In this document: in pieces, positions 19,367 through 53,675 of the stretch | How positions within the stretch are numbered: position 1 is the first letter of the stretch | Layout: each line of letters begins with the position of its first letter | Origin: Owenia fusiformis | Taxonomy: Eukaryota > Annelida > Polychaeta > Sabellida > Oweniidae | Direction of reading: 5' to 3' | Assembly (NCBI GenBank): GCA_903813345.2 | Contig: CAIIXF020000012.1 | Coordinates: 23,698,184 to 23,762,183, forward strand | Length of the DNA: 64,000 bases | Position numbers and translations under genes: made by a program | Notes under the pieces: generated by a model | Database searches by the model: none | What the model was told of the DNA's origin: nothing | Seen by the model: the letters and a program-made list of their open reading frames with translations, nothing else

Positions 19367-22300
19367 TTAACTGTATATATTATTTATTTGTTTGCGATCA
19401 TCGGGTGATAAACGATATCCCAGCTCCAGAGCACGTTGAACTGCCCATTCTTCCGTCAGATTCCATATTTCCATTGCAGTAGCTAGAGAAGGTTTGACTG
19501 CAATAGAATATTTTCAAACTACAAGATTTATCATTTTCACCGTGAAAAGGGAGGCAAAAGTTCGTCTTGAAATACAGGGTGACTGTTTATATATGACCAA
19601 TTGCTTTAAATTACTTCAACCGATGCTATTGATTCAACTTATATTTTAGACGCATCTTATGTTCAAGCAATCAATGTCAATATTTCAGATTTAAAGCTTA
19701 CTACACTTTAGAAGTAACGAGGATTTCATTTTTGACCACGCTGTACAATGTTAATAATTATAATTTAATTGATAGCACGAATGTCGAAATTAATCATGAG
19801 CTATAAACCTAAATGCAATGATATCCCAGATTTTGTAAATGTAAATATGAAGTGAAGATGTACACAGTGTGCTTGTAACATTTCATTGGCTAGTTGTATA
19901 TTTAATCGAAATACGTATCATTTATTTTGATAGCATAACCATACCATGTCTGTATTATTATGTAATATAACTAGGTTAGGTTGTGTCATTAATTGTTTAA
20001 ATACAAGTAAGTACATTTATTAAATGATTCGTATAACAAACAAAATTAGTTACTGTTTTTGAAACATCATTTGTGCCCTTAATATTATATAAAACCATCA
20101 TTCAGGACAATAGTGGGACCAAAAGGTATCACGGGGTCCAAACTACGACCGTTAATTTGAATTTTAGACCTACCGGGTGTTTGAATACAAGGATTGTGAC
20201 TCTCATACTGCACCGTTTTTCTTCAAACTTCTTCCATTTATAGGAAAACAAAAAGCCTTTCTGTCGGTGCATTGTTTTATTGTACAGAGTCCCTCGTTTT
20301 AGCAGCGTTTTGGGTCCCCAGCTGAGAGAAGCGCTTCTCACACCTGGGGCCCCAAACGCCGCTAAAGGAGGGACTCTGTATAATAGTATAATGTACCAAA
20401 AGAAAGGTATTTTTGTTTTGCTTTTAATGGAACAAATTTAAATAAAAATGGTGCAGTATAAGACGCACAATCCTTGATTTTTAAATTCAAATTAACGGTC
20501 GTAGTTGGTACCCCGTGGGTATGGGAAGTGGTGAAACATAGCTCCTTCTCTTTATTACTTACTTGCCCTGTAGCCTTTCCCGCAGTGGAATAATACAAGC
20601 CCTCTATGTGTCGCTCTCTGAGCCATTCTCTTCATGAGGGAGGCTTTAAATGGAAAAATTAATGATTTTACTACATGCGTTTAATTATCACATCTAACGA
20701 AGTTTGGAGGGACAACTGCCTGACCGGGCAATAAATTAAATACAGTTGGCCCAATTTTGATATTTTATACGTACACTCCCCTCCATAAGTTTGGCAACCT
20801 TTTTTCTCCATTGAACTACGTGTTAAAGCCTCTTTACGTTTGAATTTTTATTTACTTAACCGGCGATGGAATAACTTATGATATTGATGGAAACGTAACT
20901 TGACTTTATTTCCAATACCTCCAAATGTTCTCAATTTTTTCCCTCAATTACAATAGGTCGAAAATTGATGATAAATTTGATGAATTTTTGAAATTCGTCA
21001 TTCTCATGTAATCCAATGGGAAATGGAGGGTTCGGGGCAAATCAGAAATCAGGATATCTTTTCAGTAAAAGATTCAGCAAAAAATATGTTTATAAAGAAA
21101 ATTGAATTGTCTAACTTTTTTGAACACTAAGTGTTTAGTTTATTTGATGAATATTAAAGTTACAGCGCTTCAAAGTCATTTTTGAAAATTATTTTTTGCC
21201 TCCTGTGTTATTTCAATGGGAGAGGTTTTTTGAAAAACAATTTTGACTTTGAAGCCCTATAACTTTGTTGAACCTGAAGAAACATATTAATTTTTTGTTA
21301 AATAAAGTTAGCAAATTCAATTACCTGCCTAACTCGTATTTTTTGCAAGGACTCGGATGGATGGATATTCTGTCATATGACTTGCGGCAAACCTACCATT
21401 TCCCATTGGTTAACATGGGAATGTCGATTTTTAAAAATTCATCAAATTCATCATCAATTTTCGACCTATTGTGATTGAGGAAAAAATTGAGAAAATTTGG
21501 AGGTATTGGAATTAAAGTCAAATTACGTTTCCATCAATAGTATAAGTATTTTCATCGCAGGTTAAGTAAATAAAAATTCAAAGGTAAAGAGGCTTTAACA
21601 CGTAGTTCAATGGGGGAAAAAGGTTGCCAAACTTATGGAGGGGACATGCCCCACGTGAGTTCTGCTCGAAAGTCGATTTCCAAAATGGCAGCCGGTTTCA
21701 GTGTGTGTTATTTTACAGCTTTGTTTAAATTGAAAGTACTGGAGCAATTTTGTAAACATAAATTGCTGTTATCTAGTTTTGTCATTATGTACTGACTGAC
21801 TGAGCAGTACTTTTCTTAAAAATAGGGTGACATATCATGAATGTGTTAATTCCAATCAATGCTATAGTTTTCCAACTAAGTTTTCATAATTTGTCTGCAT
21901 TTACATCATATTCTAATTCTCTATAATACGAGTATTTTGATGAAACCTTCAAAATAGTATGAATAGCAATTGTAACTCAAAATTAATTTCTTTCAAAGAT
22001 AACTATTGCAGATGTAAATGGTAACGTGTAGTTGTTTTAACAATGGATTTCTATACCATTCAGCTGATGGATTGAACAAAGGAAGTCGTAAAATACATTC
22101 TACCTCACTGTATTACGTAACAAAGAGACTATATGAGAGAGCGGTCAGCTGCTGGTTAATCACTTGTGGTTCAGCTTGCTTAACACTAAGAGCTCATGCA
22201 GCATGGCTGCTATTTACCCTTTGTTTTCCTTTGAGGATTAAATGTTAAATTCAGATACCAAAGAAAGTGAACTTGTTACTTAAAGTAGATATGTTATTTC

Positions 22301-25300
22301 GTAATATTTTCAATTTTTTAAAGTGCCGTGAATGGCCTAAGTTAAATGTTAGTTTTTTAAAAAGAAAAAGGATATATCACTTGTTCCGGAGGAATCTATT
22401 TATTAAAAAGAAATTGCGGACTGTGGCAAGATAAATTATAGGATGATTGTCCGAGGAGAGGATGTTACCAGAAAATAAATGGGTTTGATGTCTTAAAAGA
22501 CTAGGCTACCGGTTCTAGAGCCCGTTCTAGAGTTATGTTCCAGTTGCAGATGCACATACAGTCTCTCCAAACTTCTATTACACGAAGTAATGAAGCCAAC
22601 ACTGCAAGATTGGTAATATAATAATTTTTTATATGTAACCGTTAAAGGTTTGTTTTTTAAGTGAAATGAAACCTCAAATGTGAGGATGTCAAATGGCCAG
22701 CATGTGAATGTTGGCAAAGTTGGAATCATCCAACTGTTGACTAAAAAGGGAGTTCCTCCCAAAAATGAAACCTCAAAGCAAGGATGTCAAATGGCTGGCA
22801 TGCGAAAAATTTGAGCCACCCAATAGTTGACTATAAAGGGAGTTCCTCTCAAAAATAGGATGCATGTAGATTAAAACTATGTAGATTAAACCTAAGTCCC
22901 TTGCTTGGAATCATTTAATAGTTGGTAATGGGAGTTCCTCCCAAATAGAACACAGGGATATTCCGGTCTTACACTGCTTGGAATATCTGTAATTACTGAA
23001 GAATGGAAGTTCCTTCCGAAACTGTTTAAGTATATTACCTTGATGGAACTTTTTTCCCATTTCATCTTCTTTAAGAAGAATGAAAAAATTAAAGAAGCTT
23101 GTTTGTAGCCATGCAAGGCACAAATGTAGAAACCCATTATGTTCAGTAACTGATCCTGTGTTGAGGAAGTTGCTAGCTAAAGCTGCCCCAGCTCGGATCA
23201 AATTGTAGCAATAGATTCGCAAAAACGTGTTTTTCCAACTATGACCCCTGATGGGGATTGAAATACAATAAAGCTAATAAATTTGAATTTGTGCACCCTT
23301 TTGAAGGCATTGCTACTAAGAAACATTACAATTGGGCAAAATAAGCCACAAATTTCAGTATAAATTCTCAGAGCCAATCCAGCGTCAACTGTTTCCAGGT
23401 TTCAGACTGATAATCAAGTCTTTTTGCATCATGGCAATCGCATCTGTCCCAGATCAAGTGCTATGGTAATAGAGCTAAGGTAGTTTGAAATGTATTTTTA
23501 ACAGGAATCATAATATCCTTATATATCTTTTAAAACTAGATTAAAATGGAGAAATTAGCACAGTGAGTGCAGGGAAATGATAACTTTTCATTAAAACTTG
23601 ATTTTTATCCAACTCTATCCTTGAGGATAGAGATCCATGCCTCAAACAAACTTGACTAAGACTTTATCTTCATTCGAAAAGTTAAACAATCTTAAGTGTG
23701 GATAGTCCAAAATTGAAACTTTCTAAACAGACATTTGGCCTTATACAGAAAGAATACTAGATATAGCATCATAAGGCATCATAAAAATCACACACTTTGA
23801 TGAGAATGTTTAAGATTAAAATTACTTGAAATTATCAGTTTTTTTTAGCTAGGTCACTAATTTTTTAGAAAATGATGCTTTAAATGCATAAACTGTGAAG
23901 TCAGTGTTATCACTTTTCATCTTTATTCATACAGTATGTATTACATTAATGTCGGTACCTTGACAGATATTAGTCATATAAAAATGCATGCACACAAAAC
24001 ATTGTGCCTACTTGGGAAGGACACATGAGAAACAGTTCTAAGGATAGCATAGAATCAATGTGAAATCACAGCTTGCTAACCTTATTACATAAGCATGAGC
24101 ATCTTTTTCAAAGGTCATTGGGTTTGTGTCTTTATTGTTGCAACTTATGATAATCTCCTACTTTTTCAATACATGAATCTTGAATAAGATGAAAGTAAGA
24201 CATGAAACATCAGAGGCAATTATGAAGCAATTATATATCATTATCAAATGATTCTAATGTAGCTGGCAGACTGGGGAACAATGAAATCCAGTGACTCAAT
24301 CAGTCATGGTGTCCAAGACATGACCCTCTTCACTGATGCATCAGGGAGTGGTTGATGCAGTGTATGAAATGGCATTTTTGAAGGCAGCCCTTGCTCTTCT
24401 AAAGAAGATAATAGTATGACTTAAATTACTTAGAAAGAATCTACATCAAAAGTTGGCCTAATAATGTGTGACTGTATGACTCTCATAGTTCAAACTTTAT
24501 AAATGGGACGAAATCTTTGCTTGCACACATAAAATGATTGTAAAGGTATTCAATGCTCATCCATGGTATAGTCTAGTGTGAGTACATTTACTTTGGAAGT
24601 AGATGCAGAATCCAAATATGAAAACATTTGTGCTTATGAAAATGTAATTACTTGAGTTGCAAACCCTTTTAAATGTTCCCTAATATAAGTTTTATGTTGC
24701 TTTAGAGTACTAATTGAGACAGATTTTGTGATCTTGAATCTAAGATGAAGATAATCATATCATAATGATATAGGGTTGTCTATGTATTTTGATAAAATCT
24801 TTCAAAAGAAAGAAATGCACAAAGGGCACAACATTCCTTTGTTTGTGTCTAAAAACCAGAACCTGGTGAACATGCAAAGTTGCATCTTTGGGCTTGCCCT
24901 CTCACCTTCCAAAGAGGAGGGGTGGGGGGGGGGGGGTGGTGGTGAAATACATGTACTCAATACTCATTACAGTATACCCAGATTTGCCAACAAGCAAAGT
25001 TCTAAATATTTTTTCAATTATACAAGTTATTGTTAGCTGCCCCAGCTATCCAAGTGTTGAATATTGAAGTTTTCTATAAAGCAAACACTTTTGATAACAC
25101 TTTCTAAAGATAACCAATCTTTACTTGGAATATCCATGTAAGCTATAAGTTATAATTATATTTAACAAGATTAGGCCTGACAGGCTTTTTTTGGACATCT
25201 ACATATTTAATGTAATTAGATATGCTCATTCCTGTAGCACTGTATACTTTATATCACCTCAGATAAATAAGTATTTCACTAAAAATGAAAGTATTTCATT

Positions 25301-28300
25301 GTTTGTCAATGTGCGTGACTTAGCGCTAACTACATGCAAATCGTCATAAAACGTGACACCTCATTTCATATGAGATGTTTTAAGTAAAACAGAAGATGCT
25401 ATGAGTAGCAGAATGGATGCAGATAAGCATTGCATTTTTCACATCTAGAGATATATTAACAAGTTGCTCAATCATAGAATAAACAACTTTAAGAAATAAA
25501 AAATAAAAATAAAAAGGAAATAACCTTTTTACTGCAACTTTGAATGGATGTTGATTTTTAAAAATATTTTACTACAAATGCGATGTTACACTTTAGACCA
25601 TTCACCATGCTAATGGTTAAATCTCATAAAACTGGTCATCAAATATGACTTCATGTGATTATTTGATAATGTTCTGTAGATTCAGTTAAAAATGAGAACT
25701 TATAACTGGGTTTCTTCAGAAACCTTAAACATTAATTGATGTAATATATCCCAATTTACAGCAGCAATTAACAACTCATGCCAAATCCATATTAGTATCT
25801 GGATAAGACTACAGGAATGCATGTGATGCTTTATTTTATTTTTTGAAATGTCAAAAACTTTATTCCAAATGAGTTAGATACAGTGTATCAACAAACCTAA
25901 AGGGAAGGATATGTTTTTACACAGCTGTGGGCATTGTGCTTTTGTGAGGTCTGAGTAACTTGACACAAGATTGTCTGAGTACAGCTTTTACAATTTCATT
26001 GTTTTGTTTCTATAATTGATGTTTCTTGAAGATAATCTTCATTACAAAAGTTATACTTTTGTTGTTTCAAAATTTTATTTTGATATTCATTAATTATTGG
26101 GTGATCCCATGCTTTAAAATCTCATATAGTCTCTTTGTTACGTAATACAGTGAGGTAGAATTGATAGTTAAACGAGACTTACCTTGGTAAGTTGAAGTTT
26201 GACTGTAGTTCTACCGAACTGTATGCAGGAACAAAGAGATTATATCCCACCCTATCCCTCCCAAATTGTTCCTGCATCATGACAATGTGATCACTCAATG
26301 CTCTCAATAGTGATTAACCAGCAGCTGACCGCTCTCTCATATAATCTCTTTGTTCCTGCATACAGTTCGGTAGAACTACAGTCAAACTTCAACTTACCAA
26401 GGTAAGTCTCGTTTAACTATCAATTAAAAAACATCGTTAATATTTGACCTTGGTCCACAGGATTTTGTCATGTTTGAATTGCAATAAAGAATCCCGTATC
26501 ATTATATATTGGAAATATAAAAATATCCATGCATGTACCAACCCATGCACATAATGCACTCAGGCGAAAATCCTTAATTAATAATACCTATTACTATGGG
26601 GATATATACGTACATTTAAACTTAATTCGTCCAGTTTTATTTATTTGTTAATGAACAGGTTCTTTATAGTTTCTAGGTTGTCTTTGTCTACCATATAGAT
26701 ATTGGCGAATATTTACATGTACATGTATTTAATTTATATTAGTCTTTGCTAATAAACCTTTATTTGTAATGAAATAAATTGCGATAGTGTCGATTTCATG
26801 CCATAAAACAGTATGATAAGTATATGTCGCATTTAATACTATATTTCCTGGTGTCTCGATGTTATAAGAATATTATTCTATGATTTTAAAAAATCATTTA
26901 TATCCATGAGTGGATACTGATATTTTCATAAGTTGAAATCTTGATGTTTTAATATCTTTGAATTTTTTATTAAATTTGAAATATAATTAAAAAAATTGAA
27001 AAAATGAAACCATCGAATATCACTTTTTAAGAAGTGATATTCAATAGTTTAAAAGTGATATTCTATGGTTTGGGTTTTTTGCTGAAATATGATATCTTGA
27101 TCCACATGTCAAATATATCTTCATGTGATATTCGGTCTATATCCTTGCAAAAATGGGATAAGTACGTATAAATAGACTATGTATAATCAATATTGGAGTG
27201 TGAACCTCATGAACAACCAGAATGAAGAGAATGTTGTATGCTTTGGTAGCCTAGGGGCAGAAAGAGTAAAGAAACAAGTTCATGGGAATACGGATAGAGT
27301 GGCTTGAACTATTATGGATACACTCTTGATGATCCATTTTCTGTAACTGTACCTCAAAGTGACATTTTGTAAAAAGTGATGAAAGCTAGTTTAAATATGT
27401 ACAAATATTAACAATAAAATAGGTTAGGTTTATAAATGTTTTATGATGTTTTTTTTTTATGTTTGAATGTGTATTTAACGACATCATTAAACATTGGCAG
27501 TGTGTGAATTATCACTAGCTAATGGCAAAAAGTAGACTCCCTATTCAAGAATGTAACAAATCATACTAATCTTCTTGTACAACAGAAATTGCTATTCGCA
27601 GGCAATTCCAGCCCCGTAGCCAGGATTTACCTGAGGGCGAGCGGTTTTACCAAGGGGGAGCATTTGCATTTCTCTCACATAGAAATATTTTTGTGTCTTT
27701 ATAGGGCGTTCAATATGCCAAAAATAAGTCAGAAACACAAAGCAGCAGATTTACTGGTACTTATTGTATAACATATATTACCTTTTGGTTTAAGGTGGTA
27801 CCTCATACCACCAATGGCTTCAACTGCCTGTCTCTCTAACGTCTCATTATAACCGATCGCATCACCGAATTCCAATGCATTCATTGCTTCATAGTTCACC
27901 TTGGAGCTCTTGGAGATGTACTCATTCTGTTTGCAGGCATCGATCCTCGTATCTTCAAGCCGTTTAATGCTTTGACGTCCACCGTGCTCAAAGGTGCAAT
28001 ACGTACCTGTCTTGCCTCGTACGTTCAGCAATGTTACCTCTTCTTGAGATGGCATGGAATTCTCTACAAGAGCATAATTACTAGGTAAGCCTTATATAGT
28101 TTAGTTTTATATATATTTCTCCAGTCTTGTTGCATTACATTTTAATCAATCGCAATTTAGACATAGACGGTGAATTAAAAGTAACTTATTTACCTGGCTG
28201 AATAATTGAAAATACAAAACCATTACGAGGGTATATAAAATCAAATTCATTACCTGTTACCCCTTTCCGAACATTAATAATGGTCGAGTAGCCAGCATCT

Positions 28301-29862
28301 TTTAAATTTTGTATATTGGAAGACCAAACCTGGCCAGCAATGAATATGTTCTTATACAAAGGTTTTGCCAGCCAATACTTTTGCCATTGGTTCCCCATTG
28401 GAATATCAGGTATATGTGCAGCTTGTGCGGCATTCACTTCATCAATGCTATTTCCTGTTACTTGAGCTACTATGTCAAGGAGAATAGGAGAACCAGTGTA
28501 CTCAAAACCTTGTTTCGATGCCATTTCGAAAAACGCATTTACATCCACTCTAGGTTCAAATGAAGGGTCTATCCTCGTCTTGTTTGCAAGATAACATAGC
28601 AAATAAAATGTAGAGGACCAAGCTTTCGTACAGTGTACCAAAGTTGGTTTCGGGAAGCTATCTGCAATCCTTGTAAAGCTGTGAACCATATTTATGTCTT
28701 GCCACTGAGCCCAGTCTAACGGCCTTGCTATACCATATGGTACACCAGCTAACCGTTCTGATATATCCTTAGCATCTAACGTCGTCGGGAAATACTCATC
28801 GCCCCTCTGAACTGCTGTTGTAAAATTCACAACTGCTATGATTGATTTGAAGCCAGCCTCATGAGCATATTTGATCATTCTGCTTGACAATCTTCCTGCC
28901 GTGTAGTAGTTCTCTGTTATACGCTTTGTCCACCATATTCTCTTATCATATTTGTCAGCTTCAAATTCGATGTCTCCACCTAGTGTTTAAGATATATCAT
29001 AAAGCATTTCTTTGACTTCATTAAACAGCAAACATAACTGGGATACGACCTCTATGGGTTCTTATAATTTTCTGATATTTGAATTTCCCGCTATCAACAA
29101 TGTGGATTGTCATGGACGTTATTTAAGGATTTAAGTCCTGGACTCATTGTGGACCGAATATTTTCTCGGAAGGTGTTGTTTTTAAATCTTTGCATTACCG
29201 CCCAGAGGGAATGCAATGTTTAGGAAACAACGCCTGAGTGGAATGAATCAGCCCCAATGCATCAAGTCTTAAATTCTTTTCACACATTGCAAAATATTTT
29301 TTCGAAATCACCTAAAAGATACGAAATCACTAAAAGAACATGTTTTCAATGGCTTTTTGCAATAGTCAAGTTGGCAAAGCATCGATTTCAATATGTAGGG
29401 TCAAGTTTAACATTGACAACCATTCAAAAATGACCTTGGATGCGGTGATTGGTCATATAATGCAGTGCAGTTATATGAGCAACTTTGTTCGGATTTGCTG
29501 GAATCGGACACACCTTGCCTAGCAATGTGTGAAAAATACTTTAATTTTCTTTAGGGCCCTAACGTACCTGCATGACATCTTGGGTTCTCACCACAAGCAC
29601 ACGTGCTCAAAGATTCGACCTTCTCACTCAACTTGCAATTGGAGTCCATTATATTTGCTTTCATCGACGTTTTCATGTCTTTCAGTTCTGACATCAACTT
29701 TTCGTTCTCCGATTTTAAACCCACGATCTCATTATGCATTTCGTTGGCTTTATTATTTCCATCCTCAATTAAATTCTTCAGTATTTCGAAATCGTTTGCC
29801 TGTTCAGTAAATGGTAGCAAGGCGATTGTAAAAAGAGTCGCTAATATCAAAGAGCGGCACAT
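19367..29862 (-). CDS. gene A: secreted coiled-coil protein with two DUF442/BLH phosphatase-like domains
   Basis: Five exons on the minus strand: 29568-29862, 28254-28979, 27782-28063, 20563-20643, 19367-19497. All joins are GT-AG and all introns are phase 1. The open frame encodes 504 residues. Exon 1 gives a signal peptide (about residues 1-21) and a charged heptad-like coiled coil (about 22-88) ending in a CAC motif. Exon 2 holds domain 1 (about 120-230; TAGRLSSRM, then LVHC at residue 215 followed by T-K-A-W-S) and the start of domain 2 (IFIAGQVWSSN, about 300). Exon 4 supplies the domain 2 loop FHCGKGYRA (C455), which fits the C-x4-R loop expected of DUF442. Domain 1 lacks that arginine and glycine. 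Function is unknown; the phosphatase-like assignment is by motif only. Intron 3 (7.1 kb) is enlarged by repeats compared with about 2.4 kb in B and C. The 3' exons are more diverged from B and C than the 5' exons. Confidence 0.8.
19498..20119. other. gene A intron 4, possible small MITE
   Basis: No exon is visible here. A segment from about 19574 to 19748 begins TACAGGGTGAC and ends GTCACGCTGTA-like (read as GACCACGCTGTA), which could be the ends of a small TA-flanked element. The rest is AT-rich. Confidence 0.35.
20120..20525. mobile_element. foldback MITE in gene A intron 4
   Basis: Two arms of roughly 180 bp face each other. CACGGGGTCCAAACTACG at the left is mirrored by CGTAGTTGGTACCCCGTG at the right, and the centre carries TTTGGGTCCCCAG and its mirror around 20310-20355. 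No transposase frame is present. It ends less than 40 bp from the donor of gene A exon 4 (20563). Confidence 0.75.
20772..21648. mobile_element. palindromic MITE, copy 2 (uninterrupted)
   Basis: Same family as 11999-15483 and 52790-53661: ACACTCCCCTCCATAAGT at the left and its mirror at the right, although the last bases at the right end have drifted (GGGGACATG instead of GGGGAGTGTA). The apparent open frames inside are by-products of the AT-rich arms. It lies in gene A intron 3. Confidence 0.85.
22099..22165 (+). repeat. fragment related to the 26.1-26.4 kb palindrome
   Basis: Bases 22099-22138 are the exact reverse complement of 26121-26160 (40 bp). The next bases (AGCGGTCAGCTGCTGGTTAA) mirror 26310-26336. 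The two sites, 4 kb apart in inverted orientation, could be the ends of one larger element or two independent members of a family. Confidence 0.75.
22664..23025. repeat. imperfect tandem repeat, about 98-bp unit
   Basis: AATGAAACCTCAAA starts at 22664 and again at 22762. Both units end in GGGAGTTCCTCCCA or GGGAGTTCCTCTCA. Shorter, more degenerate copies of the GGGAGTTCCT end follow at about 22930 and 23005. It lies in gene A intron 3. Confidence 0.65.
23026..26118. other. long intronic stretch of gene A, nothing recognised
   Basis: AT-rich sequence with a short G-run at about 24926-24940 and no exon, terminal repeat or RT block that I can see. A segment near 25370-25420 (GATGCTATGAGTAGCAGAATG) resembles repeats near 11980 and 47960, suggesting one dispersed short repeat. 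Confidence 0.4.
26119..26425. repeat. 87-bp perfect inverted repeat centred on splice-site-like palindromes
   Basis: Arms 26159-26245 and 26339-26425 are exact reverse complements by eye. Each arm contains the 16-bp palindrome ACTTACCTTGGTAAGT or its mirror. The left arm with its flank (26121-26245) also forms a weaker hairpin of its own. The loop holds CCACCCTATCCCTCCC. It is most likely a foldback transposon; a hairpin RNA precursor is possible. Confidence 0.85.
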
Positions 29863-30417
29863 CTTCGCCGTTGAAGGGTAAAATTAGATATGACTTAGAT
29901 ATAATATGTGTATGCTCATTGGTATTTGTGTGTTATATCAATGAATGAATTAAATGTATATCAATTATAATAAATGAATAAATAAATAAACTAACTACAT
30001 AATATTTATTAGGTTTTCATTGCAAATAATATATCATCTCATTGGAATGTAAATGCTGAAGTAGTGATTTACACTAAATAAAGTATTATGATTAAAGATA
30101 TATTATCATATAACCAATGACGTATGATTTACATATGCTGTAGTGATTTACATTTATAGCCCATGACTTGTGATTTACATTAAGTTGCAAGGGGGGGGGG
30201 GGGCATTTGGACCCCCCTCCTCTACGATTTTTTATTACTTGTCTGATTTCAATATTGTAAAACTTATTCAATTACCTCTTCAGAAAAGTCGTTTTTTAAA
30301 AAATAGTTCAACAAAGGTCAATAATCTAATGGAGCTAAGGTCATGGTAAAACCTTTTCCAGAACTGATTTTTTTCATCATTGATAGCAGATATCGCGAAA
30401 TTCTATTGAGATCAATG

Positions 30418-38500: not shown

Positions 38501-38869
38501 TTTGCTGGAATCGGACACACCTTGCCTAGCAATGTGTGAAAAATACTTTAAATTTCTTTAGGGCCCTAACGTACCTGCATGACATCTTGGGTTCTCACCA
38601 CAAGCACACGTGCTCAAAGATTCGACCTTCTCACTCAGCTTGCAATTGGAGTCCATTATATTTGCTTTCATCGACGTTTTCATGTCTTTCAGTTCTGACA
38701 TCAACTTTTCGTTCTCCGATTTTAAACCAACGATCTCATTATGCATTTCGTTGGCTTTATTATTTCCATCCTCGATTAAATTCTTCAGTGTTTCGAAATC
38801 GTTTGCCTGTTTAGTAAATGGTAGCAAGGTGATTGTAAAAAGAGTCGCTAATATCAACGAGCGGCACAT
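32546..38869 (-). CDS. gene B: secreted coiled-coil protein with two DUF442/BLH phosphatase-like domains (chimeric)
   Basis: Exons: 38575-38869, 37282-38010, 35815-36096, 33350-33427, 32546-32676. All introns are GT-AG and phase 1; the open frame gives 504 residues. The start chosen is the ATG at 38869, aligned with gene A. The layout matches gene A: signal peptide, coiled coil rich in E/K, domain 1 with LVHCRSAFTST, domain 2 with IFIAGQVWSSN and, in exon 4, LFHCGSGNRA (C455). Domain 2 has the complete C-x4-R loop; domain 1 has Cys but Ala and Thr where Gly and Arg are expected. The first part of exon 2, exon 1 and intron 1 match gene A almost exactly, whereas the rest of exon 2, intron 2 (with a transposon) and the 3' exons match gene C. 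Domain 2 may be catalytic or ligand-binding; nothing here identifies a substrate. Confidence 0.8.
33613..33790. repeat. palindromic element in gene B intron 3
   Basis: GGTGTTATATCGACGAATAC and GCTAGGCACAAA on the left are mirrored by TTTGTGCCTAGC and the matching ATAACACC segment on the right. The corresponding gene C site (about 43320-43425) keeps the left arm only, so the right arm was deleted there. Confidence 0.7.
34785..35145. repeat. 44-bp minisatellite in gene B intron 3, about 8 units
   Basis: The unit contains CTTTTGGTGCTTCATTTCAT and GTGCCTTGAACTATTGTTG. I count eight GTGCCTT-type units. The unit length is not a multiple of three, and the frames across it are accidental. Confidence 0.9.
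36199..37236. mobile_element. TA-flanked MITE in gene B intron 2
   Basis: It starts TACAGGGTGTCCGGAAAAT and ends with CAAAAAGCAAAGATAC-type sequence mirrored before GACACCCTGTA. Inverted ends extend about 40 bp (AAAGATACAAATGCTC against its mirror). No transposase frame is present. The right end lies about 45 bp from the exon 2 donor. The same insertion is in gene C intron 2 but absent from the 190-bp intron 2 of gene A. Confidence 0.8.
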
Positions 38870-40467: not shown

Positions 40468-41530
40468 ACGTAGAATTGAACAGTCAGCAATTACAAGTTC
40501 AACTTGTTTTCGTCTTTAGCATTCTCATTTCAAGATATACAAAAAGGCCAAGTAGTGATTTAGTATGCAGATGTATGAATGTATGACCTGGTATTGTTCC
40601 AATATAATTTCAGTCCATAATGTTGCCTAGCAACCACCTAGCAACGGCAAAAACATCGGATTAGTGAAATTGAAAAGTTAGGGGTAGGGGAGAATAAAAA
40701 AATTATATCTAAAATTGGGAAATTGGCATGGTATCATCATAATTCTATTACTACAGGCCTAGGTAGTATAGACATTCAGAAATATGCAAAAAATCGAAGA
40801 TAACGCGATTGGTAAATACTTGGCGATTTACTGTTTTTTTTACCTTCATAAACTCATAATATAGTCAATAGTGGCTCGATGTCCATGAAATAAAGCATAT
40901 TTGAAAGAGAATTCAATATGCTAAATTATTATCTATCAAACAGAGCAATTATCATTCTTTGAATTTTCTAGAGTATTAGAAGGTAAGAATCAATATTTTA
41001 TGAATTTCAATTTTATTGATCAAGTTCCAACTATCATAAATTTGCCCCCAGTCCCCAATCACCTAGGTTTTTACGCAAAACGTGTCTTATATTTGGCTCA
41101 AGCTAAAAAAAAATTGGGGGACGCAAAAGAAATTTGCAAAAGTACTCTTGAAAAAATTTAGCAGACATTACTAGATTAGGGTTAAACAATCTTAATAGGC
41201 AAGCCATCTGTAGAACTCGCTTACGCATAAAACGGAAAGAACGCATAGACAAGACTTTTAAGACAAGTTGGACGGTTAGCCCAAAATAAAATGGCCACCT
41301 AACAAACATAACCAAGTATACACCCTTATGCAAAGGGGCATCCCTGAAAATTTCAGAATTGATCCATGAAATTGTTTTGCTGAAAACGTGTAGACAAGAC
41401 TTTCAACACAAATATTAAGGACGAAAAATCCAAAATGAAACAAAACACACTTTGTCTTAAATCATTTTCTATTACTTCTTTAATTTCAAATTAATCAACT
41501 GTACTAGTCTACAGTATATTTCATTTAATT

Positions 41531-44500
41531 TTAAGGGTAGATTTCGTTTATTTGTTTCAGTCGTTCAGCAGATAAAGGATATCCCAACTCCATGGCACGT
41601 TGAACTGCCCATGCTTCTGTCAGATTCCATATTTCCATTGCAGTAGCTAGAGCATTTCTAACTGTAAAACAATATTTACAAACTACATTTAACTTTTTAC
41701 ATCGCAAAGAATGAAATACTTGCTTGAGTCCGTCCAGGTGAGCTTTTAAATATATGACCAATATGCATCGAATTTGAGGTGCTGTTAGATCAACTGATGT
41801 TTTAAACAAATGATACACAGCGGATTTATGACTACCTCAGATTTGAAGCTTATTGTTTATATATTTACAAAGTTATTAGGGGAGACGCAGGTTAAAATTT
41901 ATATTTCAGTTGAACAGAAAGCCCAACATAATCATGAGCTACACATTTAAGCTCAGTGACATTACAGAGCTCGTAAATAGGTTGTAAATGTAAATATAAA
42001 AAAATTGCATGCAACATCTTTTATCGTATTTGCATTTTTTCTTTTGATAGCAATTTCATACATTAGTAGGCCTAAACAAAAATCATTCAATTTATTACTC
42101 ATATATTATTTGTCATATGTTATATTTATATGTCAATTGATATGATATACGTATAAAAAACAAACTTATAAGTTTTGAAACAGTATCCGTTCCTTACATG
42201 CACATGATATAAACCATCAATCGAGAATCGGGCACAGGTAGTAAGGCTATACTCGTAGTAGTTTAAAGGTTGAATAAATAGTGCAGAGACGTATTCAACG
42301 ATCATGGTCCTGGTGTCAAAATACATCGAATTTTGAATATTTCATCAAGGCTAACATCTATTTTCATTAGCTACAAAGAAAACCCCCGAACGTACCTAAT
42401 TTCTGCCGATATTCACAATCACTGGCATCCTAAATCCCCGGGAATCTTCTCCCGACATCGACAGAAAAAATGCTCACGTACCTTTTAATGATTTCCCGGT
42501 TATATTGTCATTGGATTCCAGCCCCGTTTTCACCTAACATTCTGTCCAACATTCTGTTTCCTTTATACCATGCGCGTGTCAAGAAGACCTTGAATATGGG
42601 CAGATTTGAGGTGTTTTTAGTCTTAGATTTTTTTGATTTTTCTTCGTCAGTGGATCAGATTAACTGCAAGAGTCGCCGGTAATAGACCGTCAACGGCATA
42701 CCGTGCATACGGTTATATCAGACAACCGCGGTTATACTGTAACATGCGGTCTTACCTATCTCAGCTGCAGCAAGAATTTTAAATGGCGGAGATTTAGAAA
42801 TGTTTCAAAAAACAAATTGCGGGACGTCCAACCTTTCAATTGTTTATTTAGAAGTCTATTTGCAAGTCTGATTGGTGGTATTCGTCGACAAGTGCATATA
42901 TTTTAAGAAAATAGGTATGGCGAAGAAGACATTGGGCCAAACGTTGCACTAATAGCTCGGGAAAGGTAAAATGACTCCCAAATTTCTTCTATAGTCTTTA
43001 TTCAACCTTTAATGTTATGAGACATCACCCTCTTTACTACTTACTTGCTCTGTTGCCACTGCCACAGTGAAACAATACAGGTCCTCTGTTCGCCTTCTGA
43101 GTGATTTTCTTCATGAGTGGGGCTAAAAAGGAAAAATAAGTATATTCATACTTGAGCCAGAGGCAAAGGTCGATAGATTAGTTATAGATAGTTATTTTTA
43201 AATAAAGATGGCATGGTAATCGATGTGTTTATTTATAAATATTCTCTTAGGGAAGATAATACTGCATTCTGTTGGTGCTGCCATCTTTATATCGGCCCAG
43301 AACCTATGACTTGAGCTAAGAAATATAGACTTCAGAGCAGGTGTTATATCGACGAATACAGACCGCTGGGCTATGCACAAACGTCTTCTGTACCCCAAAA
43401 GACTGTAGCAAGGGATTACCAACTCGTATTACCAGGGGTATTGTTCGGAATGTAACCCGTGTGAAATATTGACTTTGTTCACAGTTTAAAGAAGGCGTGG
43501 ATCCAGGATATCCCATTCAAGACAAGTAGTTATGCATGAATATTCTTTTTTATGATATAGTATATAATACAGAAAACATTATTTCTGACCACCAACACAC
43601 TGGTTGGTCATATCGCTCGCGAAATTTCTAGATGATGAGATAGGCTCGTCTTATACTGGAGGTTGTCTTAATAACTGAATTTGGATGGACAAAAACTATT
43701 TCATTCTCATTCAAAATCCTCATGAAAAATATTTATAAAATCTTTATTTGATATCGTTTGATATCCGATAAGAATTCATAATACTTATTTATGGGGGCAT
43801 GCATATTTAATATTTAATTTTAGTCCCGTCTTATTTATCTGTTTATGAACAGGTTCTTATTAGCTTCTAGGTTGTTTGCAATTGTCTACCGTATAAAGTG
43901 AATATTTGCACATATTTCTATATCAGTCTTGGCTATAAGTAAATAGGCAAACCTATTGATGTAAACAAATAATTTGTAATGAAATCATGTAGGTTTTCAT
44001 GCCATACGACCAGTATGACTTTATAAATTATTTGTCGCATTGTTAGGTATGCACCAAAGTTCCTGTAATTGTCAATATGGATCAGCTAAAGTAGTTAAAG
44101 GTCCAAGTGCTTTCGGTGTCGATCCCTTGTTCAGGATGTACACCTTTATGTAATTTGCATTTGTCTATATGAATACGGAATATAAAGAGCTTTTTAGTAA
44201 AGAGAGTGTGTGTTAACATAGCATTAGAAATACAACCAAGTTTTTTTGGAACACAAACAGAGTGCCTAACTGTTGCAACTGTTGCCTAACCGGTGCACTC
44301 TTGGACCTTTATTTTGTGTGCCTTGAATTATTTTTGGTGCACTTTTGATGCTTCATCTCATGTGCCTTGTTCTATTGTTGATGTACTTTTGGTTCTTCAT
44401 TTAATGTGCCTTGAACTATTGTTGGAGTACTTTTGGTGCTTCACTTCATGTGCCTTGAACTATTGTTGATGTACTTTTGGTGCTTCACTTCATGTGCCTT

Positions 44501-47500
44501 GAACAATTGTTGATGTACTTTTGGTGCTTCACTTCATGTGCCTTGAACAATTGTTGATGTACTTTTGGTGCTTCACTTCATGTGCCTTGAACTATTGTTG
44601 GTGTACTTTTAGTGCTTCACTTCATGTGCATTGAACTATTGTTGGTGTACTTTTAGTGCTTCACTTCATGTGCCTTGAACAATTGTTGATGTACTTTTGG
44701 TGCTTCACTTCATGTGCCTTGAACTATTGTTGGTGTACTTTTAGTGCTTCATTTCACGTGCCTTGAACTATTGTAGGTGTACTTTTGGTGCTTCACTACA
44801 TGTGCCTTGAACTATTGTTGGTGTACTTTTAGTGCTTCATTTCATGTGCCTTGAACTATTGTAGATGTACTTTTGGTGCTTCATTTCATGCGCCTTGAAC
44901 TATTGTTGGTTCACTTTTGGTGCTTCGCTTTATGTGCCTTGATTTATTGCTGGTCCACTTTTGGTGCTTTATTTTATGCGCCTTGGTGCACTCTTTGCGC
45001 TTCATTTTGTGTTTTCCGAACCTCAAATGTCTGATGTGACCTGTCGTTAAAACGTGACCCTTGAAGGTTTTAATGTGTCAAAATGACAACAATAAATTAG
45101 ATTATGTTTACAAATATTTTATAATTTTTGTTATGTTTGAATGTATATTTAATCTAACATTAAATATTAGCAGTATATGATTAATCGCTAGTTAATGGCA
45201 AAAATAAAATAGCTATACGCAAAAAAATGTGACTGCGCTACAGCTTGCCGGCCTTGACAAGTATTGAGCTTATGTAATTGTACATTCAGTGTTATGAATA
45301 AATACAAAAAAAACTAAAGAGGTCTTTGTGATATGGAGACAATTGTAATCAATTTTGCACAGGGAAAAATTACTTTTGTCGTACCCGGGATGTTCAACAA
45401 GTACTGTTCGAATTGCAGAAAAATATGAAACAGTAGAAACGTCAGGCTTTTTATTCATCGGTAATCATTGAAAGCCTTGTAATTAAAACCTCCCTCGGTT
45501 TTTTTGGCCAAACATGTACAATATGTTTTTCTTGCACATATATAAAGTGCTAATAAATTAACAGCCAACAAACATACCTATTTTGTTATCATTTGTTGTG
45601 CAAAAAGCAAGTAACTTACAGCTAGCTATATGAGAATATGAAACATAATATATATTACCTCTTGGTTTATACCACCAATCAATGGCTTCAACTGCCTGTC
45701 TCTCTAACGTCTCATTATAACCGATCGCATCACAGAATTCCAATGCATTCATTGCTTCATAGTTCACCATGGAACTCTTGGAGATGTACTCATTCTGTTT
45801 GCAAGCATCGATCCTCGTATCTTCAAGCCGTTTAACGCTTTGACGTCCACCGTGCTCAAATGTGCAGTACGTACCTGTCTTGCCTCGTATGTTCAGCAAT
45901 GTTACCTCTTCTTGGGATGGCTTGGAATTCTCTAAAATAGAGTATCAGTTAACGAGCATTATTTCTCCAGTCTTGGAGCTAAGTTAATCTTAGATTTCAT
46001 TTGAACCAGTCGCAATATACGTTTAATACAAAAGTAGCATACAGGTTGTCAGGAAAGTAAAGATACAAATGCTCTTATTTCAATTTTACCTGTTGTGAGA
46101 TGAATTGCTACAAAAAGAATGACATTATTACAACTTATCCTGCAACTTTCAAACCATATAGTGTCAAAATGAAAAAGTTATGATTGTTATGGTAACAGAA
46201 CTCGGGGGTATCTGTTCCTATTATGCATCAAATTATGTACATATAACAGCATAAGGATTGGTACTGAAACATTATTTGATCATTTCATATTACTGCTGTC
46301 ATCCAGTATTATATATTTTCCACCATTTTTCGAACTTTCGTGGTGCATCCTGACCGGATATTCAAAGGCCTGTCAATTTAACCGCTGCTGTCCACCTCTC
46401 AGATTGCTGATAACATTGGCTTCCAGCCGTGTCTTTCACGTATTCATTAATAGAATGTAGAAGCCTATCGAGACTTTATCAGGAGAATATCGGCCATTGT
46501 ACAAAAAGGTTAATTGTCATGAAATTTAATGGTAAGATTTGTTTTCTTTGCTTTTTGAATTGGTGCATTGTGGGGGACGAGGTGCAATATTGACTTTCCT
46601 ATTGATTCAGGGACCTTTTTTCTAAGTACTTTGTATAATATTTCTTTGATTATACTGGTTAGTGACATTACGCGTATCAATGCTATCATTATACTAAAGA
46701 GAAAACTGGCAATAATAATACAATATTAAAACATTGATAGAAAATACAATAATAAACACTCTTTCAAATGGTCATATTTTAGCAATCTATCACATTTTAG
46801 CAATATCCTGGAGCTGCCCCGCATACCTCTAACAACCGTAACCATGAAAACCATAACTTAAACACGTTTAGACAATATGGGATGAAAGTTGGTAGATATA
46901 CTGTCATAGTGTTCAATCTGTAGCAATTTCATTTCAAGAAACCTAAATCTCTTAGAATCAGAGTATTTGTATCTTTGCTTTTTGACACCCTGTATTTGTT
47001 GGCGAAATACATGAAAGTATAAAACAGTTACGAGACGAGTCCTTAAAAGCAGAATCCTGAAACGATAATACATAAAATTAAATTCATTACCTGTTACCCC
47101 ATTGCGAACATTAAAAATGGCAGAGTAGCCAGCATCTTTTAAATTTTGTATATTGGAAGACCAAACCTGGCCAGCAATGAATATATTCTTATACAAAGGT
47201 TTTGCCAGCCAATACTTTCGCCATCCGTTTCCCATTGGTATGTCAGGTATATGTGCAGCTTGTGCGGCATTCACTACAGTAATATGTTCTCCTGTTACTT
47301 GAGCCACTATGCCAAGCAGAGTAGGAAAACCAGAGTACTCAAATCCTTGTTTGGATGCCATTTCGAAAAACGCATTTACATCCACTCTAGGTTTAAATGA
47401 AGGGTCTATTCTCGTCTTGTTTGCAAGGTAAGAAAGCAAGAAAAACGTAGAGGAAAAAGCTGACCTACAATGTACCAAAATTGGTTTCGGGAAGCTATCT

Positions 47501-50500
47501 GCAATTCTTGTAAGGCTATGAACCATATTTATGTCTTGCCACTGAGCCCAGTATAATGGCCTTGCTATACCATATGGTACACCAGCTAACCGTTCGGATA
47601 TATCCTTTGCATCTAACGTCGTCGGGAAATACTCATCGCCCCTCTGAACTGCTGTTGTAAAATTCACAACTGCTATGATTGATTTGAAGCCAGCCTCATG
47701 AGCATATTTGATCATTCTGCTTGACAATCTACCTGCTGTGTAGTAGTTCTCTGTTATACGCTTTGTCCACCATATTTTGCTGTCATACTTGATAGCGTCA
47801 AATTCGATGGCTCCACCTAGTGTTAGAAATATATAGCAAGGCATTTATTTGACCTCAAATAACTTATTTACGAACATTCAGAAGGCTTGGGATACTCATC
47901 ATGATAAACCACGACGTCTCATTTCTTCTCAGCCCTGAGATGTTTCAGGTGAAACAGAAAGATGCTATGAGTATCAGAATGTAGGATACTAATGTCCCCA
48001 CAGGCTAAGTACATGTCAAATTAAATCCAAGTGCGACTTGACCAAGTGACGTAGCCAGGATCTAGATAAGGAGAGGCAAAGAGCAAAAGAAGAGGCAAAT
48101 TTAGGCTGAATTGTGTATATTAATACCTTTACACTTTATTTACATAAAAACAATTTTAAAAAATATCTGTAAAATTTTGGTGAGGCAGTTACTTCGCCTT
48201 CCACAAACATGGCTACTTCCAATTTTTGACAAGCTGGAGAAAATTCTAAGTAACAATCCAAGTTCTGCTTAACGTTATATATGAGGGGTGATCAATAAGT
48301 AATGGACGCTTTTTTAAACAGATACTTTTTATAGACCAATCCCTTTGATTTTCCTACCAGTGATACATCATTCAATTATCTATTAATTCTGAGGATTTGA
48401 AGACACAATATAAAATACATGTTGATATATCCTTATTTCCGTGAAGGAGGTACAGGTACCCCGGGACCGACATTTACGTTACATATTCAGTTTCCAGCCA
48501 GTTTGGCAAATTTCAGTTAGATTTGAACTTTTTATATGTAACAAGTGTTGTGTTGTTTGAAATATTTTGCTGACTGGTATCACATAACCATTCGAAATGT
48601 TGAGGCATGCGCAGACCTCTATTTAGTGATATTTTCATTTCAAATATGGCGGCCAATCCGATGTCTGACGACCCTTACAAAGAATCTAGGCAGTTTGCAT
48701 TTTTACCTCCTGTGAAATAACAAGTGGAATTTAGTAGTTGTTTTGTGTTTTATTATCATTCTGCATCGTAATTCTATGTGATGTGGTGTTGAAATGTCAG
48801 CAGAAATACATATCCATACGATAATCGAGTGAATCAGATAACAGATTTTTCGAAAACCCGTCTCGTGCTAAGAGTGTAAAAACTTGTATTAACATGCTCA
48901 AAAGTGCCAATGTGCACATCAATGTCAAGCTAAATCAATGTTGTGTCTAAAACAGGTACCCGATCTACTCAAAACAGCTTGTCATTCACGTATACACGCT
49001 TAGCAAACACGGCGAAATGACCTGAATCTTGGAATTTCGTTCAAGAGCTAGTAATGTTTGCTCCGGTCTTCGTCATAAGTGTTCATCAGACTTCACGCAT
49101 GCGCAGGAGAAAAACCATCAACCAATAAGGTTTATAAATCAATTTTGCGCATGCGCCTTACAACGGTAAACAAATTCGTATTTATAAACGAACCAGTTTG
49201 AGATAACCCGATATCAGTCGGAGAAATCTGACGATCTACGAAACTCACTTCAAAAAATCAAATGCGGACTGACGGCGTATTCTACTATGTTTGGATCTAA
49301 GATTTTCAGTATAGATAAAGTCTTTTATGATCTTTCGAATGAGGTAAGTCTCTAGTTCGAAAGACAATCGTATCAACTTGAACAAAAGTTAGAGTTTTGA
49401 CGAAAAATTTTAACATGCGCAGAAGTCCCATTTTCGTTGTACCACATTGACTGTAAACAGAAAGTATTGTGATGTCAGAGTGTTGTATGGAAGGGGTTTG
49501 CAGGTCAATTTGAGAAAGCATTGTGGAAGAAGGGGTTGGTGAGAGAAGGGAACACCCTACTCCATATGGACAATGAACCTGCCCACAGAATGGCACAGAT
49601 CTCAAAATGTTCAGTAAACAATATCCCTGGACCTCAAAATTGAGCCCTTGGCCAATGCACCATATTGTCCAGATTTGCTCGCATGTGACTTATTTATTTC
49701 TATACTACTTATTTCTATAGAGAAAGGACGACGCAGGTTTATATACATTGATAAAATAAAACAACCCGTGTAACTGTATCTTGCTACTATGTCAGAGAAT
49801 GGATTCAGCCTTGTCTCACAATCTTGAATTAAGAGGATGAGGAATTGTGTACATGTAGCACTTGATGAAACTTATGTAGAGGGCCCTGTAGAATGAATGT
49901 GGCATGAATACCACATAGTGATGATAAAATATTCAAAATTAACTATGGCATAACAAAATGGGGTAATTCATGACCATAATGGTCTGTTTTGTTCAGCCTG
50001 CATTCAACTGCATTGCATGGTAAACAAGCTAAAATAGCTTCAGAATGTTTGACGTTATGTCGGTCCCGGTGTACCTATACATCCTTCACGGAAATAAAGA
50101 TATATCAAAATAAATTAAATGTTTCGTTTTCAAATCTTCAAAGTTGATAGATAATTGAATGCTAAATCACCGGTAAGAAAATCGAAGGGATTGAACTATA
50201 AAAAGCATCTGTGTAAAAAAGCGTCCATTACTTATTGATCACCCCTCGTACTTTATTTGAAAGACCCAGCGTACCTGCGGGACATGCTGGCTTCTCACAG
50301 CCACATGCACACGAACTCAAAGAGTCGACCTTCTCGCTTAGTTTGCAATTAGAGTCCATTATGTTTGCTTTCATCGACGATTTCATGTCTTTCAGTTCAG
50401 ACATCAACTTTTCGTTCTCCGATTTTAAACCAACAATTTCGCCATGCATTTCATTGGCTTTATTATTTCCATCTTCAATCAAAGCCTTTATTTTTTCAAA

Positions 50501-50587
50501 ATCGGATTCCGTTTCATTGGCTCCCTGTTTTGTAAATGGTAGCAGAGCGATTGTATAAATAGTCCCTAATATCCATGGCTGGAACAT
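41531..50587 (-). CDS. gene C: secreted coiled-coil protein with two DUF442/BLH phosphatase-like domains
   Basis: Exons: 50275-50587, 47091-47816, 45659-45931, 43045-43122, 41531-41661. All introns are GT-AG and phase 1; the open frame gives 506 residues. The start is the ATG at 50587. Exon 1 is six codons longer than in A and B, with extra residues after the signal peptide (GANETES) and two more cysteines before the donor. Domain 1 carries LVHCRSAFSST; domain 2 carries LFHCGSGNRA in exon 4 (C457). Exon 3 is nine bases shorter than in A and B near its 3' end. A mariner-like element occupies most of intron 1 and ends 26 bp from the exon 1 donor; intron 2 has the MITE shared with B and intron 4 an extra inserted element. 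All exons are intact, so the gene is probably functional. Role unknown. Confidence 0.8.
42262..43012. mobile_element. 751-bp inverted-repeat element in gene C intron 4
   Basis: It begins TTTAAAGGTTGAATAAA and ends TTTATTCAACCTTTAA, inverted ends of about 16 bp. The empty site is visible in gene B at about 33320. Target duplication is unclear. Internal frames have no recognisable domain. Confidence 0.75.
44295..45010. repeat. 44-bp minisatellite in gene C intron 3, about 16 units
   Basis: Same repeat as in gene B intron 3 but with about sixteen units. First and last units match one to one between the two arrays; the extra units are in the middle and include near-identical blocks with the GAACAATTGTTGATG variant. 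This indicates internal expansion after the duplication. Gene A has the flanking intron sequence (about 27380-27540) but no array. Confidence 0.9.
46040..46994. mobile_element. TA-flanked MITE in gene C intron 2 (orthologous insertion)
   Basis: Same position and ends as 36199-37236 with about 10 percent visible divergence and several small deletions. A shared insertion site means that B and C introns 2 descend from one interrupted intron. Confidence 0.8.
47880..48000. repeat. short dispersed repeat in gene C intron 1
   Basis: TCATGATAAACCACGACGTC followed by TCTCAGCCCTGAGATG and GATGCTATGAGTATCAGAATG recurs near 11937-11997 and in part near 25365-25420. It is probably one short interspersed family. 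Confidence 0.55.
48292..50249 (+). mobile_element. mariner-like transposon with transposase remnant, in gene C intron 1
   Basis: The ends are TGAGGGGTGATCAATAAGTA and the mirrored TACTTATTGATCACCCCTCG, flanked by TA. Plus-strand frames near 49550-49720 give LHMDNEPAHRMAQISK and, in another frame, a YCPDLLACDLF-like motif, typical of the mariner catalytic core. Stops and frameshifts disable it. Intron 1 sequence to its left (48030-48290) matches sequence near 51385-51620, showing where the intact intron continued. Confidence 0.8.
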
Positions 50588-50799
50588 CTTCACCGTTGAA
50601 GTATAAGCTGGTAATGACTTACCATACAGACCATAATAAGTGTACGCTAATTGATTTTTTTGTTTGTGTTATGTCAGGTTTTTATTTGCAGTATTGAACT
50701 ATAAATGAGTAGTTAAACTGAGAGTAAAACAATAATACAATTATAGAATAACAGGTTTTGTCGATATCATAAAATAAACAAAAAAATAAGCCGAACATA

Positions 50800-51380
50800 T
50801 ACCACGGTGTCCAACCCAAACGCTCTTACATGCACGACGGAGCGTTTCATTCACGTGGAACCGCCGCGGAGCGAAATAAAATGGCGACTAATGAAGATCC
50901 CACAATGACCGTCAGTATTGTTTTACTCGTTTCTCTTACATATCATACGTTATGGTGACATATTATGTGCCATTCGATGAACAATACCCTGAGCAAAGAT
51001 CATATTTATTCAACTTCTGGTGGTAAACTGTTATTTGCTTGATCAAAGCTCCGTAGTGTAGATCGAACGAATGTGAAGTAGACGAATTGACCACGAATTA
51101 AACTAGTATTTATGAAAACGTCAATCTTTCTGTCAAAGTAGTAGATCACAAACTCGTATATTCTCAATTGCTAAAATCCCAGTCCGAATCCATTACTTGT
51201 TCTCGAGAAATCTCTTGTTTTCCTCGAAACGCTCTGTCGATTTTGGACACAATTTTAGAACGCTCTTACCATTTTGTTTTGATATTATTTTCAGATTATT
51301 AAAGTAGAGTTCGGAGTCGAATCTATCTCTCAAAAACGTGTTGTACTTGCTAGGCAAATTGTAACTTAAACTTTGAATCT
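50800..51380. other. CpG-containing stretch upstream of gene C
   Basis: Bases 50820-50900 are clearly richer in GC and CpG than the surroundings and contain an ATG in good context (AAAATGGCGACT at about 50878). Short repeats of AACGCTCT occur at about 50819, 51228 and 51259. It may be an inserted element or an unlinked first exon or promoter; no continuing exon was found. Confidence 0.3.
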
Positions 51381-51625
51381 AAAGATCTAAAATTGGGGAG
51401 GCAAAGATCAAAGAGAGAAGCAAATTTAGGCTGAATTATGTATATTACTACCTTTACACTTTATTTATACAAAAACAGTTAAAAAACGTCTAAAATATAT
51501 CTAAAATTTTGATGAGTAATCTGCCTACGTCCATGCTTACCTAAAAAACTACACAGCCAGTGAATATTTTTATCAGCTGGGGAGAATTTTAAGTGACGAT
51601 GTAGGTTCAACTATTTTACTTTACT

Positions 51626-51882
51626 CAAAGATTCGACCTTCTCGCTTAGTTTGCAATTTGAGCCCATTATGCTTGCTTTCATCGACGTTTTCATATCTTT
51701 CAGTTCAGACATCAACTTTTCGTTCTCCGATTTTAAACCCAACGTCTCATCATGCATTTCACTGGCTACATTATTTCCATCTTCAAGCAAAGCCTTTATT
51801 TTCTCGAAATCGGATTCGATTTTATTGTAAATGGTAGCAGAGCGATTGTATAAAGAGTAGCTAATATCTGTGGTCGGAACAT
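51626..51882 (-). pseudogene. gene D: broken first exon of a fourth paralogue
   Basis: Minus-strand sequence from the ATG at 51882 gives a signal peptide almost like that of gene C and then shifts frame. In the second frame the coiled-coil part continues (LKSENEKLMSELKDMK and SNCKLSEKVESLS) before running into stops where the splice donor should be. Upstream sequence to about 52020 also matches the gene C upstream region. No other exon of this copy is present nearby, so it is a dead 5' fragment of an older tandem copy. Confidence 0.85.
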
Positions 51883-53661: not shown

Positions 53662-53675
53662 ACTTTGGGATATTA

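Follow-up and report, generated by a model that had tools for sequence, protein, structure and literature searches.

The question raised by this locus is what kind of protein a tandem gene cluster of the annelid Owenia fusiformis encodes, and what such proteins might do. The cluster lies in a 64,000-nucleotide stretch of assembly GCA_903813345.2 (contig CAIIXF020000012.1, positions 23,698,184 to 23,762,183 of the forward strand), hereafter called the window, and comprises three genes that, like every exon given below, lie on the minus strand: A (29862-19367), B (38869-32546), and C (50587-41531). An earlier note on this DNA had described three intact five-exon genes and a dead fourth copy, encoding secreted proteins with two DUF442/BLH-like domains. 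The gene models, which we rebuilt from the sequence, bear out the first part of this description. Each gene has five exons, all 12 introns are of the GT-AG type and in phase 1, and the frames are open throughout, so that A and B each encode 504 amino acids without interruption and C encodes 506. Exon 1 is matched four times in the window and exons 2, 3, 4, and 5 three times each; the additional match is an exon 1 remnant (51624-51881) with a frameshift directly after its signal-like stretch, and exons 2 to 5 of this fourth copy were not found within the window. On the comparisons presented below, it is very probable that the window proteins have the proposed two-domain architecture and are homologous to DUF442.

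Homology of the two domains to bacterial DUF442 proteins

Exon 2, which encodes the entire domain 1 and the start of domain 2, has at least eight matches in the 498-Mb genome: three in the window, three on C5 (at 15.284, 15.294, and 35.773 Mb), and single ones at C12:5.586 Mb and C11:29.505 Mb. Two divergent paralogues, when used as queries, retrieved the same eight genes; one further match, at 0.038, contained six stops and was excluded. The number of copies is a lower bound.

The Pfam profiles gave a divided answer on the family call, which had been made by motif. No PF04273 match was obtained with the whole proteins B and C at E ≤ 10, single exons gave no BLH match, and exon 4 of B alone matched the related PTP-SAK family at 0.22; domain 2 of the paralogue at C5:15.29 Mb, on the other hand, passes the PF04273 cut-off (32.8 versus 26.1 bits, E = 9.5e-8). 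Among the eight family members, PF04273 matched five domain 2 sequences at E ≤ 1 and one domain 1 sequence, at 0.025, and other models of phosphatases were matched by single domain 1 members, at 0.032 and 0.15. The Rhodanese model (PF00581) was found on 2 of the 8 domain 2 sequences (best E = 0.0069); its scores on domain 2 of B (15.4 bits, 0.026) and of C (13.3 bits, 0.12) lie below the cut-off of 22.2. The NCBIfam models reached further, Blh matching all eight members (best E = 5.6e-11) and TIGR01244 six (best E = 4.2e-14) at E ≤ 1, with the first family member, which gave the best E values, scoring below the curated NCBI cut-offs (52.7 versus 85.85 bits for TIGR01244 and 42 versus 625 for the full-length Blh model). 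Profile searches of the whole genome yielded no match to PF04273 at E ≤ 10 and a single match to TIGR01244, at 0.127 and with a stop, which was not counted; we attribute this failure to detect the family to its split exons.

A few weak matches to other models were taken as chance, namely, a restriction-enzyme model of PADLOC in two of the eight members at E ≤ 0.01 (best 0.0082), the Pfam Shiga-like-toxin-beta model in one of the eight domain 1 members (0.023), and lone Pfam matches to AWPM-19 and AMO. PHROGs returned nothing at E ≤ 0.1.

Further evidence came from the comparison of profiles by hhalign. Against seven bacterial DUF442 proteins, the family scored 100.9 with domain 1 and 108.5 with domain 2, and the maxima of 100 column shuffles each were 20.4 and 18.9, respectively. 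Since the seven proteins had been found with a domain 2 query, the domain 1 score is the less biased of the two. With 32 bacterial DUF442 proteins, chosen by their P-loop pattern, the scores rose to 121.9 (99.2%) for domain 1 and 138.2 (99.5%) for domain 2. Profiles built from A, B, and C only still gave 76.6 and 71.9 against the same 32 proteins, with shuffle maxima of 21.7 and 18.9 (100 each) and a score of 11.2 for a segment of exon 1 used as a negative control. Direct alignment of domain 1 with domain 2 covered 36 columns only (80.8%, E = 1.3e-5, where hhalign E values refer to one comparison), and a common origin of the two therefore rests mainly on the fact that both match DUF442.

Comparisons with known structures were less decisive. 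A family profile searched against PDB sequences gave five matches, none of them significant: NMA1982 (2f46) on domain 2 at 0.044, the DUF442 protein 3gxg on domain 1 at 0.26, the uncharacterized 2m3v at 0.27, and two entries of the tyrosine phosphatase TpbA at 0.37 and 1.9. The two-domain part of B found nothing in the PDB by phmmer at E ≤ 10. When exon 2 of the three window genes was modeled alone by AlphaFold2, the predicted local distance difference test score (pLDDT) was 44.0 and the predicted template modeling score (pTM) was 0.35, and Foldseek returned unrelated folds with no meaningful match, such that this model decides nothing. Addition of the 32 bacterial rows to the alignment for domain 1 of B raised the values to 73.8 and 0.72. 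Foldseek then placed 2f46 first (7.3e-5) and 3gxh next (1.0e-4), with modest TM-scores of 0.44 to 0.58, and VIA-align gave Z scores of 11.6 for 3gxh (149 residues, root mean square deviation of 3.8 Å), 9.7 for 2f46, and 8.2 to 9.7 for other phosphatase-fold entries among the best 50 matches. The domain 1 model is compatible with a phosphatase fold, and it is not independent proof of it because the input alignment contained bacterial DUF442 rows.

These data indicated that the motif-based assignment was sound: one paralogue passes PF04273, and both domains score far above shuffled controls, also when the profiles are confined to the window genes. We nevertheless call the window family a relative of DUF442 rather than a plain member, since neither B nor C reaches a curated cut-off and the characteristic loop is gone from domain 1, as described next.

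Active-site loops of domains 1 and 2

Domain 1 lies within exon 2 of A (28254-28979), B (37282-38010), and C (47091-47816), and domain 2 is spread across four exons. Its P-loop reads HCTKAWSS in A, HCRSAFTS in B, and HCRSAFSS in C, and the other copies have HCEITIAA, HCGVSYAA, HCGVGYSS, HSGVGYSA, and HCKIAFTA. The Cys is thus present in seven of the eight copies and an Arg at the catalytic place in none of them, leaving domain 1 devoid of any C-x4-R loop. At the strand end where the bacterial proteins carry N-x-R, a motif that domain 2 retains in all eight copies, domain 1 invariably reads NFT, a glycosylation sequon (8/8).

The P-loop of domain 2 is encoded by exon 4 (A, 20563-20643; B, 33350-33427; C, 43045-43122) and reads HCGKGYRA in A and HCGSGNRA in both B and C. 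The C-x4-R loop predicted for the second domain is therefore present in each window gene (HCGKGYR, HCGSGNR, and HCGSGNR). Exon 5 (A, 19367-19497; B, 32546-32676; C, 41531-41661) follows with the stop, encoding in A the C-terminal part of domain 2. In the five other copies, the loops are HCSSGFRS, QCRSGYRS, HCRTGKRA, HSRTGHTA, and HSGSGHRA. Across the family, Gly is invariant (8/8), Arg is present in seven copies and Cys in six, and Cys and Arg occur together in six, including all three window genes. The C-x4-R spacing is that of all seven bacterial proteins found by tblastn. Neither domain has the C-x5-R signature of classical protein tyrosine phosphatases (PTP) and dual-specificity phosphatases (DSP), domain 2 having C-x4-R and domain 1 no Arg.

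The pattern of loss could point to a noncatalytic extracellular binding protein, in which both domains are pseudo-enzymes, the domain 2 loop is at most an oxyanion pocket, and the insert described below, together with exon 1, serves as a recognition molecule. The lack of the domain 1 Arg in all eight copies and the loss of the domain 2 Cys in two of them fit such a protein; the Cys, Gly, and Arg of domain 2 have been kept in A, B, and C despite 29 nonsynonymous differences in 69 codons between A and B in exons 4 and 5, which weighs against it.

A different prospect, that the proteins are extracellular protein or small-molecule phosphatases of the NMA1982 type, bears on the catalytic acid. NMA1982 is a demonstrated phosphatase in which C95 and R100 form the C(X)4R motif and D71 is described as the catalytic acid (PMC10716126), and its structure 2f46 is the top, albeit nonsignificant, PDB profile match. 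However, counting by hand along the profile-PDB alignment places D71 opposite a family-profile position that is not Asp. In addition, A, B, and C lack an Asp in the domain 2 segment that follows the conserved Pro, and this segment falls about 10 residues short of its length in the C5 and C11 copies, a shortening that also suits a binding protein; the C12 and C11 copies have an Asp nearby (PTVND and PVDN). With the catalytic Asp position not retained, we regard a phosphatase as improbable.

The conserved insert, exon 1, and the case for export

Between its N-x-R strand and the helix that follows, domain 2 contains an insert of about 75 residues that the bacterial proteins compared do not have. 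The window genes encode it in exon 3 (A, 27782-28063; B, 35815-36096; C, 45659-45931), a symmetric phase 1-1 exon. Four representatives share on average 68% identity in the insert, compared with 46% in domain 1 and 47% and 38% in the remainder of domain 2; with the C11 copy added, the values are 57%, 43%, and 42% and 36%. From this we infer that the insert may be the functional centre of the family. A segment whose conservation exceeds that of the remaining domain sequence (68% versus 38 to 47%) would also be expected of a recognition molecule and so adds to the case for a binding protein. Scanned by itself, exon 3 of B gave no Pfam match at E ≤ 1, and exons 3 to 5 had, beyond the family, a lone match in the genome, at E = 8.7.

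The N-terminal part of the window proteins is encoded by exon 1 (A, 29568-29862; B, 38575-38869; C, 50275-50587), which in A comprises a signal-peptide-like N-terminus, a helical-looking segment, and CxC cysteines. Hydropathy revealed a hydrophobic N-terminal stretch in all eight copies, which is compatible with the signal peptide proposed for A, B, and C and from which we infer that the window proteins would enter the secretory pathway. The remainder of exon 1 looks helical and contains Cys residues (C76, C88, C90, and C96 in B). A trimer-like coiled coil had been proposed here, and this is not supported: of 2,000 heptad shuffles, 202 (A), 116 (B), and 115 (C) reached the observed score, which is therefore not significant.

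Termini differ elsewhere in the family. In the C5 copies, a short signal-like N-terminus runs straight into domain 1, and these three paralogues carry hydrophobic C-tails that resemble glycosylphosphatidylinositol (GPI) signals by eye and hydropathy. No hydrophobic GPI-like tail was found in A, B, C, and the C11 copy; the C12 copy stood outside this comparison.

Relationships among the family copies

From exon 2 onward, the exon order of the paralogues is identical as read by eye, with exons 2 and 3 of the C11 gene lying in one open frame of 409 codons. In the tree, the window genes and the copy at C12:5.586 Mb form one group with a support of 100/99, and the C11 row is long and its placement unsure. 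A short exon 4 is common to the C12 copy and the window genes. The C12 copy has a separate first exon, signal-like, helical-looking, and rich in Lys, Glu, and Met, that bears no recognisable similarity to the window exon 1 (best E = 0.47); a genome search with the window exon 1 matched at E ≤ 1 only the four copies of the window. The last exon of the C12 copy contains a frameshift (at about 5220 of C12:5584500-5594000), and both the Cys and the Arg of its domain 2 are gone; this copy may be decaying.

Relatives were also sought in viral contigs (35 pattern matches) and in prokaryote genomes (15), and none was confirmed. Thus, no donor for a recent horizontal transfer was found by this exact-pattern searching, which can miss one.

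Constraint and recombination in the cluster

When A and C were compared (alignments of at least 120 columns), the matching blocks were confined to the exons and two short intron blocks at 73 to 78% identity, a pattern of coding constraint. Synonymous (dS) and nonsynonymous (dN) divergence was then counted by the Nei-Gojobori method for exons 1 to 3 and exons 4 and 5 separately. For exons 1 to 3, dS/dN values were 0.149/0.032 (A-B), 0.238/0.076 (A-C), and 0.244/0.065 (B-C), giving dN/dS ratios of 0.21 to 0.32 across the three pairs. For exons 4 and 5, they were 0.539/0.207 (A-B), 0.621/0.194 (A-C), and 0.044/0.038 (B-C); the ratio is about 0.3 to 0.4 for A versus B and A versus C, and that of B-C means little because it rests on 8 differences only. 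These ratios, along with three copies that are free of stops and frameshifts, argue against the view that the window genes are functionless duplicates of recent origin, little used or not transcribed, whose frames happen to be intact. The tandem, partly recombinant arrangement and the dead fourth copy would suit that view, which we consider very improbable.

Gene B differs from its neighbors in that its two parts have different affinities. From about 37260 to the end of the unit, B aligns with A without a break (4,311 columns, 94.3%). Between 32501 and about 36379, its alignment with C is piecewise, at 87 to 95%, and the matches to A are limited there to exons and two short intron blocks at 73 to 76%. 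The segment from 36443 to 38051 also aligns with C (88.7%), so the switch point lies somewhere near 36.4 to 37.3 kb. Exon 3 of B is exceptional, being nearer to A (95%) than to C (90%). Judging from these alignments, gene B is a mosaic, a recombinant of C-like and A-like parts, for which an unequal crossover of one A-like with one C-like gene, and then some conversion in exon 3, would be a simple explanation. The cluster as a whole is best explained as a recent tandem expansion inside a small animal family.

Several repeats lie in and around the genes. Intron 3 contains a 44-base minisatellite in B (34780-35121, about 7.8 copies) and C (44317-44985, about 15.2 copies). A repeat family in both orientations, with arms of up to 492 bases and 96% complementarity, occurs at 15012-15503, 20752-21644, and 52787-53662 and so flanks the cluster on both sides and also sits in its low end. 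An open frame at 13972-14685 (minus strand) encodes a reverse transcriptase domain (RVT_1, 3.4e-37), marking a piece of a retroelement, and one at 62242-62952 (plus strand) encodes a GIY-YIG domain (6.9e-5); the latter frame, we presume, could belong to a Penelope-like retroelement.

A proposed function and its standing

Taken together, these results suggest the following explanation, to which we assign a probability of about 40%: the cluster would be a tandem expansion of genes for exported proteins, each with two DUF442/BLH domains of the cysteine-phosphatase fold, of which domain 1 would be a pseudo-enzyme, acting as a noncatalytic partner or binding domain, and domain 2 a possible cysteine enzyme whose ligand pocket is framed or shaped by the insert. 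Exon 1 could form a helical stalk whose Cys residues link chains, and it may allow the window proteins to act in soluble, perhaps oligomeric, form where the three paralogues with putative GPI signals would be anchored. As for chemistry, transfer of sulfane sulfur in a rhodanese-like manner appears likelier for domain 2 than phosphate hydrolysis, since the catalytic Asp of the DUF442 phosphatase NMA1982 is not retained; the DUF442 domain of Blh is reported as a measured sulfur transferase (PMC5823870). That domain 2 is active in sulfur chemistry is nonetheless tentative, at somewhat less than even odds.

Several observations weigh against this explanation. Secretion is predicted from hydropathy, and a catalytic thiol that is free and extracellular is open to oxidation. 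Two copies lack the domain 2 Cys, one of them the Arg as well, which means that the scaffold can persist without catalysis, and neither B nor C is recognized by PF04273 as a whole protein. In our ranking, a noncatalytic binding protein, itself falling short of an even chance, is nearly as likely as sulfur transfer, and a phosphatase is less so.

Relation to known DUF442 systems

DUF442 domains are described as bacterial in the two accounts at hand, one of sulfur transfer by Blh (PMC5823870) and one of the phosphatase NMA1982 (PMC10716126). Nearly the full length of the bacterial DUF442/TIGR01244/Blh domain (PF04273, NF040641) is covered by the alignment of either animal domain, and domain 2 shares its C-x4-R spacing; unlike the bacterial proteins, the animal ones have tandem domains, probable export, an Arg-less domain 1, and the insert of about 75 residues, and an ETHE1 partner domain is absent from their gene models. 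NMA1982 of Neisseria meningitidis resembles the family as the top, nonsignificant, PDB sequence match of domain 2 and as the first Foldseek match of the domain 1 model (TM-scores of 0.46/0.58). It differs in the catalytic Asp, which the window genes do not keep, and in being described as having no signal peptide; the enzyme was recovered from culture supernatant (PMC10716126). The DUF442 protein of Shewanella putrefaciens (3gxg/3gxh) is the second PDB match (domain 1, nonsignificant) and the best VIA-align match; the animal domain 1 departs from it in having no Arg, and the model compared was built with bacterial DUF442 rows. Classical PTPs and DSPs, including laforin, KAP, and DUSP26, share the overall fold of the domain 1 model (Z of about 8 to 9) and are set apart by their own C-x5-R loop, as opposed to C-x4-R or no Arg in the animal family.

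Among the literature matches listed, no animal family with two DUF442 domains appeared by title or start of abstract; most subscription journals lie outside that coverage, and a prior description is possible. We regard the family as a diverged form of a known domain, with two copies per protein and probable export. It is a doubtful but conceivable extension that it constitutes an extracellular DUF442 machine of animals, cell-surface or secreted, in which a pseudo-enzyme domain and a C-x4-R domain with its exon-borne, family-specific insert together handle sulfane sulfur or recognise oxyanions, for example, on the epithelium of a worm whose habitat is sulfidic sediment. An animal family of this kind, probably exported and with paired DUF442 domains, one lacking its Arg and the other retaining the Cys-Arg loop, would extend this fold to the extracellular biology of animals, and within one genome it provides a natural series in which active sites are kept, half lost, or lost, in branches with and without GPI-like tails.

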